Shown one piece after another: positions 2,372 to 62,650 of a stretch of 64,000 bases of DNA (its first letter is position 1; each line of letters opens with the position of its first letter). The position numbers were made by a program, and so were the translations under genes. The DNA is taken from contig NZ_JMME01000001.1 in the NCBI RefSeq assembly GCF_000686945.1, forward strand, positions 186,001 through 250,000, in the 5' to 3' direction. This DNA comes from Selenomonas sp. AE3005 (lineage in GTDB: Bacteria > Bacillota > Negativicutes > Selenomonadales > Selenomonadaceae). Below the pieces are notes generated by a model that had not been told where the DNA came from, ran no database searches, and worked only from the letters and a program-made list of their open reading frames with translations.

Positions 2372-2541
2372 TGCATCTTGCTATCTTCTTTAAGAGGTGA
2401 TATCCACGCTGCCCCAGAGTTCCTTTGAGGTATCAGTATTAGACGTTTTTTTTTATATCGCACTACACACTTTTTGCATTCGGGTATATAAAGAACAGAA
2501 CGCAAGACAACAACACTCAAAGATGTGAGGAGGAAAAGAAA

Positions 2542-2694
2542 ATGGATAAGAAATTCATGAACAAGATGGACAATATGGCACTGGATAAGGTGGCTGGAGG
2601 TAAGCGGTACGTTTATCCTACTGATGATCGTCGTCCGAATCGTCCGATTAAAACGTGGCATATAGAACGCAAACAAGTCATACGTTATAGATAA
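2542..2694 (+). CDS. Small peptide precursor with double-glycine-type leader (bacteriocin-like)
   Basis: A 50-codon gene with a strong GAGGAGGAAAAG ribosome site ending about six bases before the ATG. The first 20 residues (MDKKFMNKM...ALDKVAGG) look like the double-glycine leaders of class II bacteriocins and related secreted peptides: charged, hydrophobic positions spaced through it, ending in GG. The predicted 30-residue core starts KRYVYP and is strongly basic, with two aromatic-rich patches and no cysteine. Such leaders are normally removed by a C39-peptidase ABC exporter; none is encoded in this window. A terminator 11 bases after the stop makes the gene monocistronic. The leader call is from pattern only, and antimicrobial or signalling activity is inference. 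Confidence 0.6.
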   Translation: MDKKFMNKMDNMALDKVAGGKRYVYPTDDRRPNRPIKTWHIERKQVIRYR

Positions 2695-2704
2695 AAATTG
2701 GTTA

Positions 2705-2735
2705 AAAAGAGAGCACAGGGTGCTCTCTTTTATTG
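2705..2735 (+). terminator. Rho-independent terminator after the GG-leader peptide gene
   Basis: AAAAGAGAGCAC (2705-2716) and GTGCTCTCTTTT (2720-2731) form a perfect 12-bp stem with a three-base loop, followed by more T residues. Confidence 0.92.
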
Positions 2736-5821: not shown

Positions 5822-6202
5822 ATGGGGAAAATTCAAAAAATCCTCGTGCCTGTTGACGGTTCCGTTAATGGCTGTAAAGCTGTAGACGAAGCTATTTTCC
5901 TGGCAGAAAAATGCAAAGCTGATTTGGATTTTGTCTATGTGTCCAGTAATATCAACAAGGATATTCCCAGTCATATTGTCTTTGACCGCATTTGGGAAAA
6001 GATTCCGCAGGAGCTGCGGGCGGCCAAACATGTGGAAACGGGCAGTATTCATAAGGCTATCATTCGTGTGGCCGCCCAGGAACACAGTGATATGATAATC
6101 ATGGGCAGCCGGGGCTTAGGGCTCTTCAAGGGAGCGCTTATCGGCAGTGTCAGTCAAAAAGTCATTGAAGAATCACCGATTCCTGTAATGGTGATTAAAT
6201 AA
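5822..6202 (+). CDS. Universal stress protein (UspA family)
   Basis: 126-residue single-domain Usp protein. It starts GKIQKILVPVDGS, the usual first strand and Asp, and ends with the ATP-binding signature GSRGLG...GSVSQKV followed by IPVMVIK, so the nucleotide site looks intact. Usp proteins are cytosolic, ATP-binding and induced by stress or growth arrest; the individual role is unknown. The ATG at 5822 has GGGAGG about eight bases upstream; the in-frame ATG at 5792 adds ten unlikely residues. It is monocistronic, between the tRNA terminator and the hairpin at about 6212. Confidence 0.9.
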   Translation: MGKIQKILVPVDGSVNGCKAVDEAIFLAEKCKADLDFVYVSSNINKDIPSHIVFDRIWEKIPQELRAAKHVETGSIHKAIIRVAAQEHSDMIIMGSRGLGLFKGALIGSVSQKVIEESPIPVMVIK

Positions 6203-52333: not shown

Positions 52334-52354
52334 TAACGTCATGTTAGAAAAATA

Positions 52355-52606
52355 GCAAGGCAATGACGAAGAGGAGTAGGGCTATTCCTGCGGCAGAGAG
52401 AGAAAACGGCTGGTGGAAGTTTTCGTGCAGGGGGCGTGAAGGTCGCTTCGGAGCTTTTGGGCTGAACTATAGTAGGCGCAAACGTCTGGCCGCGTTAAGG
52501 CTTTGAGCTGACTTGTCAGATTGACATGTCAAATTGACAGGTCAGGAACATTGGTGGTACCACGAAAGTATGCGCTTTCGTCCTTTGGGGCGGAGGCGCT
52601 TTTTAG
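52355..52606 (+). promoter_or_regulatory. T-box leader of valS with terminator
   Basis: The leader has the AGAGAG and GGTGGAAG segments of stem I, a specifier region with GTC (valine) at 52442-52444 inside GAAGGTCGC, the AGTAGGCGC...CGTTA region, and the T-box core TGGTGGTACCACG at 52552-52564. The terminator GCGCTTTCGTCC (52572-52583)/GGGCGGAGGCGC (52588-52599) has 12 pairs and ends in TTTTT. Uncharged tRNA-Val should stabilise the antiterminator and allow valS transcription. A TGAC hairpin at 52508-52545 lies between stem III and the T-box. Confidence 0.9.
52508..52545 (+). repeat. TGAC-type hairpin within the valS leader
   Basis: CTGACTTGTCAGATT pairs with AATTGACAGGTCAG (one wobble and one bulge), and between them TTGACATGTCAA is a perfect palindrome. 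It resembles the TGAC hairpins at 4477, 25169 and 38111 but here it is inside the T-box leader and is not followed by T residues. Confidence 0.6.
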
Positions 52607-62347: not shown

Positions 62348-62391
62348 AAAACATGTGAGAAAATCACAATTTTTATTCAATTACATAAGAG

Positions 62392-62562
62392 GAACAGGTG
62401 CTGGCCGGCGCACATCCGGCAGCTGAAAAGAGAAGCTGGTTAAAGACCAGCGCGGTCCCGCCACTGTAAGGGGAGCGAACCTGCATAGTTAAGTCACTGG
62501 AAATGCTTTTTCTGGGAAGGCGCAGGCAAGCTATGAACCAAGCCAGGAGAACTGCCTGTTTG
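62392..62562 (+). ncRNA. Cobalamin riboswitch
   Basis: The conserved core GCGGTCCCGCCACTGTAA and the B12 box AGCCAGGAGAACTGCCTG (62541-62558) are present in order, with a P1-type pairing AACAGG/CCTGTT at the ends and a GCCGG/CCGGC helix in the 5' part. It should bind adenosyl- or other cobalamin and switch off the following genes when B12 is sufficient. The sequence from 62563 to 62650 holds further pairing segments that form the expression platform. Confidence 0.95.
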
Positions 62563-62650
62563 ACAATCACCGTTGCGGCCCAAGGGAGGCTGCTGAACCT
62601 GCGAGCGATGGGGAGGGGATTTTTCGTCAGGGTTCTTTATGATGAAATTG

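Follow-up and report, generated by a model that had tools for sequence, protein, structure and literature searches.

Double-glycine-leader peptide genes dispersed in Selenomonas genomes and their proposed link to an exporter-encoded ECF sigma factor

Prochlorosins are lanthionine-modified peptides arising from many precursors, which share one leader type, carry diversified cores and are encoded distant from the processing genes. NHLP- and Nif11-type precursors (TIGR03793, TIGR03798) occur with the TransFuse-TransCleave-Trans exporter (TIGR03794/03796/03797) as described in PMC2887384, which also mentions the Prochlorococcus N11P expansion and whose main text does not contain the word 'sigma'; the combination of an exporter with paralogous precursors bearing hypervariable cores has already been described (PMC2887384, PMC3140520). 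Among rumen surveys, one reports Selenomonas sactipeptides (PMC8241843), and the main text of the 2026 Hungate1000 bacteriocin survey (PMC13289728) contains no mention of 'sigma' or 'NHLP'. Here we analyse a 50-codon peptide gene in a 64,000-nucleotide stretch from Selenomonas sp. AE3005, called the window in the following (G000:C1:186001-250000; the genome G000 comprises 2.82 Mb in 25 contigs, other G numbers denoting further genomes and L numbers fetched loci). The product of the gene is quite probably a precursor from which a cationic peptide of 30 residues is secreted, belonging to a dispersed set which would be switched on by the sigma factor of an exporter. No description of this set of peptides, promoter-like element and sigma factor was found in the open-licence literature searched.

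The open reading frame (ORF) at 2542-2694 on the plus strand translates into the 20-residue double-glycine leader MDKKFMNKMDNMALDKVAGG (2542..2601, +), which is also found by the leader profile, and the 30-residue basic core KRYVYPTDDRRPNRPIKTWHIERKQVIRYR (2602..2691, +), the predicted mature peptide with relatives in other genomes, followed by the stop codon TAA (2692..2694, +). The ribosome-binding site GGAGG within GATGTGAGGAGGAAAA (2529..2533, +) ends 8 nt before the ATG and was placed by sequence and by comparing the upstream regions of 52 genes of the family, taken from 10 genomes. Behind the gene lies an intrinsic terminator-like hairpin of 12 pairs with a T-rich tail (2705..2731, +; one found versus a shuffle mean of 0.2). 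The first-pass annotation had described a strong ribosome site and an own terminator, and both stand. Upstream of the ribosome-binding site the gene carries the promoter-like element TACACACTTT-N12-ATATAAAGAACA (2464..2497, +), with ACACTTT at 2467-2473 and ATATAAAG at 2486-2493, as located by a weight matrix and a pattern count over the genus. The 50-codon gene is confirmed as real by the three signals flanking it (promoter-like element, ribosome site, terminator) and by relatives in other Selenomonas genomes.

The leader ends in GG and has V at -4, L at -7 and M at -12, in agreement with the double-glycine shape previously assigned to it, with the correction that Ala takes the place of the Glu mostly present at -8 in the family. 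Cleavage would be expected after G20 from the leader consensus. The core contains 7 Arg, 3 Lys and 3 Pro but neither Cys nor Ser, and has a computed isoelectric point of 10.96, a charge of about +6.9 and a calculated molecular weight of 3941.5. No NCBIfam model matches the peptide (P0001) at E up to 10, and in Pfam no bacteriocin model does, the single match being DUF4771 at E 0.064, under the cut-off of that family; neither TIGR03793 (nitrile-hydratase-like leader) nor TIGR03798/PF07862 (Nif11-like leader) matches. A sister gene in genus g39 does have a Nif11-like leader. A search of the PDB with the core returned zero sequences at E up to 10.

Profile searches show that the double-glycine leader is common to a dispersed paralogous family. 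With a profile built from 12 leaders, the own genome gave 10 copies (E<1e-7); further genes with the same leader, a search for which had been suggested earlier, do exist, and these share a common promoter-like element. At E<=0.01 the profile matched 10 of 60 genomes, the own one included, all ten being among the 22 genomes of the genus, with 16 matches in the one-contig genome G010. Conservation of leader and ribosome site in relatives, set beforehand as a test, was found in contigs of S. ruminantium and in 10 of the 22 genus genomes. Extraction of the family from 10 genomes yielded 52 genes, among which 42 leaders and 48 cores are distinct. The cores fall into 17 clusters at blastp E<=1e-4 and include Arg/Pro-rich and, judged by eye, amphipathic-helix-like ones, with lengths up to about 100 residues. 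Some copies, in G010 and G012, are shortened to a 25-residue ORF.

Several cores recur behind different leaders. The KRYVYP core is encoded by seven genes in five genomes, the window gene included, behind five leaders in the fetched loci; the earlier description of a core without Cys holds, while the core is not unique to the window. The FDYGYG core is found behind two leader types, MEKKFMNK-type and MAKNLMNNNRMTDKELSLVSGS, and the QTFWY and THxEMVEL cores behind two leaders each. The best reading is a dispersed peptide set exchanging leader and core as modules. Many cores show a recurring tail HDSNANSMAANVDETQ.. with repeated short blocks KLPIG and MAANV (e.g. L071 6843-7082), which suggests repeat expansion inside cores. 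A second leader type (MDKKELxxME..VSGG or similar) was observed near family genes in L021 1781-2123, L022 5545-5937, L070 13316-13474 and L071 7302-7415; these genes are oppositely oriented in L021, L070 and L071 and adjoin the KRYVYP gene in two G010 loci.

Outside the own genome, leader and core are both present, with 81-85% identity over residues 3-50, on three contigs bearing the name S. ruminantium; four further loci match the leader part and one Anaerovibrio locus matches the core end. In this locus, from Anaerovibrio sp. RM50 (L009 ~6001-6048), a different reading frame ends, in phase, with the last 15 residues of the core, which looks like a recombination scar. Comparing the window gene with six relatives, the ratio of nonsynonymous to synonymous changes (pN/pS) of the leader is 0.23-0.60, and that of the core is 0.35-0.41 versus G012 and G002 and 1.9-2.2 versus four G010/G011 copies, each of the latter values deriving from one synonymous change.

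The upstream sequences show that the window gene and most of its relatives lie behind one two-box promoter-like element. Most family upstream regions show ACACTTT, a variable stretch, GGGGATATAAAGAACAGAA and then a conserved untranslated leader; some family genes lack the boxes and are placed close behind another family gene. The pattern ACACTTTN{11,14}ATATAAAG has 92 sites in 13 of the 22 genus genomes and the reversed pattern 2, and a one-piece element pattern occurs in 12 of the 22 (reversed control 0). The spacer varies in sequence, its length being 12 or 13 bases in 85 of 88 measured sites in a search permitting 11-14 bases. The window element scores 38.2 by a weight matrix whose building set includes this very site, compared to 14.0 for the next best place in the 64 kb, and no place in the reversed window exceeds 11.

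Among 95 element sites from the fetched loci, excluding sites present solely in L120, L121, L127 and L138, 60 precede genes with a double-glycine (GG) leader: 45 of MNK-type, two of which sit 210 nt from the element, 14 with other GG leaders and one of Nif11-type. The other 35 comprise six of the FDFS family, whose members carry FDFS close to the start and an AAG site, 19 Sec-type proteins, a class sorted on first residues with no signal-peptide predictor, seven others and three without a called ORF. Sec-type proteins of 115-119 residues, recurrent in the genus, lie behind the element in L021 7291-7638 (G000:C16) and L147 2075-2431 (G000:C10) and are possibly immunity or surface proteins.

Over the whole taxonomic family, the element pattern is present in 33 of 189 genomes and 8 of 30 genera. 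Single sites may be due to chance, because seven reversed matches were seen in all. Genes behind the element in genus g39 include Nif11-type precursors, short-leader genes (MEKKFMNKMDDMELDMVVGG) and members of the FDFS family; the putative switch would therefore reach both precursor kinds, Nif11-type and short-leader. Several Nif11-type precursors of this genus lie behind the element in L268-L275, and the two which could be fully read share a similar tail, NACAFIGVGFG..GGSNGPIAG.

The expectation that an exporter is missing nearby and encoded elsewhere in the genome proved right: the own genome has two C39 peptidase genes (E 8.9e-34 and 6.2e-33), located on contigs C2 and C6 and not on the window contig, both in NHLM-type operons. 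NHLM_micro_HlyD, ABC1 and ABC2 (TIGR03794, TIGR03796, TIGR03797) score above the curated cut-offs in both operons, and both carry a gene for an extracytoplasmic function (ECF) sigma factor. Beside the sigma gene, the C2 operon comprises an HlyD adaptor, a C39-peptidase ATP-binding cassette (ABC) transporter, a second ABC transporter and a TolC-like protein. All 10 leader-positive genomes of the genus have a strong C39 gene (E<1e-30), compared with 3 of the 12 leader-negative ones (Fisher p 0.0005), and a close homologue of the C2 sigma factor is present in 12 of the 22 (61-69% identity outside the own genome). The strict element was found in 12 of 12 genomes with such a homologue and 1 of 10 without (p 2e-5), both p-values ignoring kinship. 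In G004 and G013, strong C39 exporters occur without a close homologue of the C2 sigma factor and without the element.

The comparison of genomes shows that the presence of the element tracks the ECF sigma gene of an NHLM-type export operon, and the element recurs behind this gene. Of 11 operons scanned behind the sigma gene, G010 being left out, eight (G000, G001, G005, G006, G008, G012, G016, G020) have an element start within 400 bp; the distance is 0.9 kb in G011 and 5.2 kb in G003. In the own C2 operon the element follows the sigma gene at 17 nt. Three genomes, G000, G001 and G012, have an imperfect nearest copy, the last of them with an additional strict copy at 351 bp. C6-like sigma loci (L025, L176) and the exporter loci of G004 and G013, when scanned, showed no element scoring above 16.2. 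Co-occurrence and position lead us to infer that the element belongs to the ECF sigma factor. A prfC tree of 21 genomes, which lacks G006, requires 4 changes of the sigma label (3-4 in bootstrap), and 0 of 200 bootstrap trees need just one.

Two observations concern genes beside the exporters. Behind the sigma gene of the C2 exporter, at L026 18378-18593 (G000:C2), we identified a short FDFS gene with an AAG-type site and a short tail, having relatives in L153, L157, L165, L166, L177 and L193; it could be a precursor or a regulator. Next to the second NHLM exporter (L025 10869-12125, G000:C6) there are four double-glycine precursor genes with other leaders, several being Gly/Asn-rich.

We propose a model according to which the sigma factor of the exporter would drive joint transcription of the exporter-linked gene and the scattered precursors. 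The C39 domain would then recognise the leader and cut after Gly20, and the core would exit via the ABC/HlyD/TolC conduit. Several points weigh against it. Transcription, cleavage and activity are predictions, as is the assignment of the window peptide to one of the two exporters (C2 or C6), and the constraint on the core, as read from the gene comparisons, is weakly tested. The TolC-like protein of the C2 operon falls under its NCBIfam cut-off. The own C2 element is imperfect, the gap between ACACTTT and ATATAAAG being 15 nt versus the usual 12-13, and its matrix score is 28 versus a minimum of 35 among the sites from which the matrix was built. G018 has one element site and no close sigma homologue, and the 2.65 kb scanned behind sigma in the G002 operon contain no element. 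The 2x2 test makes the genomes look more independent than they are, because sigma presence is clustered on the prfC tree (11 of 500 shuffles as low), where well-supported branches force only 2 changes. Sec-type proteins, which are not C39 substrates, stand behind 19 of the 95 element sites. On the side of the model, 54 of the 92 ORFs that follow the element show the strict GG pattern versus 5 of 416 background ORFs, all five from the C6 exporter region. Two features of this count favour the motif arm: GG-bearing ORFs were preferred if several started behind one element, and the arms differed slightly in their first residue (5 and 9). The window gene has Ala and not Glu at -8 and itself fails this pattern.

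Considering the function, we lean slightly toward the mature peptides being antimicrobial against competing rumen bacteria, like unmodified microcins and class II bacteriocins, the remaining probability being divided between signalling, a function on the surface of the producing cell itself, another role or none. Double-glycine peptides include pheromones, and the peptide could be a secreted signal sensed by the producer or its kin, the sigma factor then acting in a sensing circuit and not as a production switch. That the peptide set has its own sigma factor and that a precursor-like FDFS gene with the element follows sigma in several genomes is consistent with this. However, 17 core clusters with one leader type fit an arsenal better than one receptor, and no receptor or kinase was recognised beside the gene or its relatives in ORF lists that carry no profile annotation; we consider signalling unlikely. 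The earlier interpretation is supported overall, bacteriocin and signal both being predicted roles. Another explanation concerns the element, which might be an ordinary promoter of the flagellar sigma factor FliA placing the peptides in the motility regulon. Its -10 part (GGGGATAT) and spacing resemble the FliA consensus, CGATAT is present in two flagellin upstream regions and one element site stands divergently beside a flagellin gene on C10. Against this, FliA scores above its cut-off in 20 of the 22 genomes, among them 7 of the 9 that lack the element, and ACACTTT is absent from all of the flagellin upstream regions inspected in the own genome, five out of eight (160 bases each). We rank a FliA promoter low, as rather improbable, since nearly every genome of the genus has FliA, which is not so for the element.

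The gene could also be a remnant that is silent or in decay, recombination having copied leader and promoter around with most cores being functionless, as might be concluded from the 25-residue copies, the core tail ending an unrelated Anaerovibrio frame and the site before prfC being private to the own genome among the genomes searched. The intact frame of the core in five genomes, the pN/pS values of the leader and, versus G012 and G002, of the core, and the completeness of promoter-like element, ribosome-binding site and terminator argue against decay, for which we see little probability. That the ORF arose by chance has nothing but its small size in its favour and is contradicted by conservation, leader copies, the shared upstream region, element counts and pN/pS taken together, leaving a negligible probability. 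A precursor of a secreted cationic peptide, expressed with a dispersed set under the exporter's sigma factor, remains the preferred reading.

In the window, the peptide gene is located upstream of prfC (release factor 3), and the gene of a DUF805 membrane protein (1754-2179) lies between asd and the peptide gene. None of the 20 other prfC loci of the genus has the peptide gene upstream of prfC, within about 1.5 kb for 19 genomes and 0.47 kb for G016, prfC not being found in G006; the likeness of their DNA to the window resumes only at 2728 or later, at the terminator end. Proline-rich peptides can act on termination, and a functional pair with prfC was considered and rejected given this absence from 20 of 20 loci and the late return of likeness. 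No immunity gene was recognised near the peptide gene; one may lie at a distance or be of a kind that is not recognised. DUF805 as an immunity gene is not supported, no relative of it being present in nine loci around core relatives; neither was it found in the stretch before prfC in the 20 relatives. Five neighbourhoods of core relatives from three genomes have no gene common to all, G002 and G012 sharing neighbours with each other, as do two G010 copies. Plasmid and phage searches with the whole protein, one leader residue changed, gave no relative, and in IMG/VR, searched with the leader profile only, 241 stretches matched a pattern and 0 were confirmed; a plasmid or phage origin is not supported. 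Elsewhere in the window, there are a T-box leader (52354-52588) and a cobalamin riboswitch (62379-62573).

A wider model, which we hold tentatively and as somewhat short of probable, is that the exporter operon's own ECF sigma factor turns on peptide genes scattered over the whole genome, promoter and leader forming a portable 'express and export' cassette that gains cores by recombination and gives rise to strain-specific arsenals. If the sigma link is true, most of the peptides that a strain exports could be listed by a promoter search alone, even those whose genes are too short and too isolated for cluster-based genome mining, and one sigma deletion would test the whole peptide set. The rumen bacteria would then provide a natural system for leader and core module exchange.

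As a summary, the window family shares the exporter families, the Gly-Gly site closing a conserved leader, paralogous expansion and hypervariable cores with the NHLP/Nif11 systems, as far as these are described, and Nif11-type precursors share the element here, one in G012 and many in genus g39. It differs in its 20-residue leader without nitrile-hydratase or Nif11 domain, in the window core lacking Cys and Ser, in the genes being mostly scattered, singly or in small groups, and in an element linked to an operon-encoded ECF sigma factor. Like class II bacteriocins and unmodified microcins, the precursor is short and has a GG leader with hydrophobic residues at -12, -7 and -4 and putative C39 export, and several sister cores resemble, by eye, amphipathic cationic helices; unlike such bacteriocins, P0001 matches no bacteriocin profile and has no adjacent exporter and no recognised immunity gene. 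One leader type, diverse cores and precursors far from processing genes are features in common with prochlorosins, whereas a core lacking Cys and Ser is at variance with their lanthionine modification. Apidaecin and oncocin are of the proline-/arginine-rich antimicrobial type, and the window core, being basic, containing Arg, Pro and Tyr and lacking Cys, resembles them in composition only, with 3 Pro of 30 residues and no PDB match. We judge the parts to be of known kinds; what is new is that the precursors have short leaders, occur dispersed and would be linked to a sigma factor.
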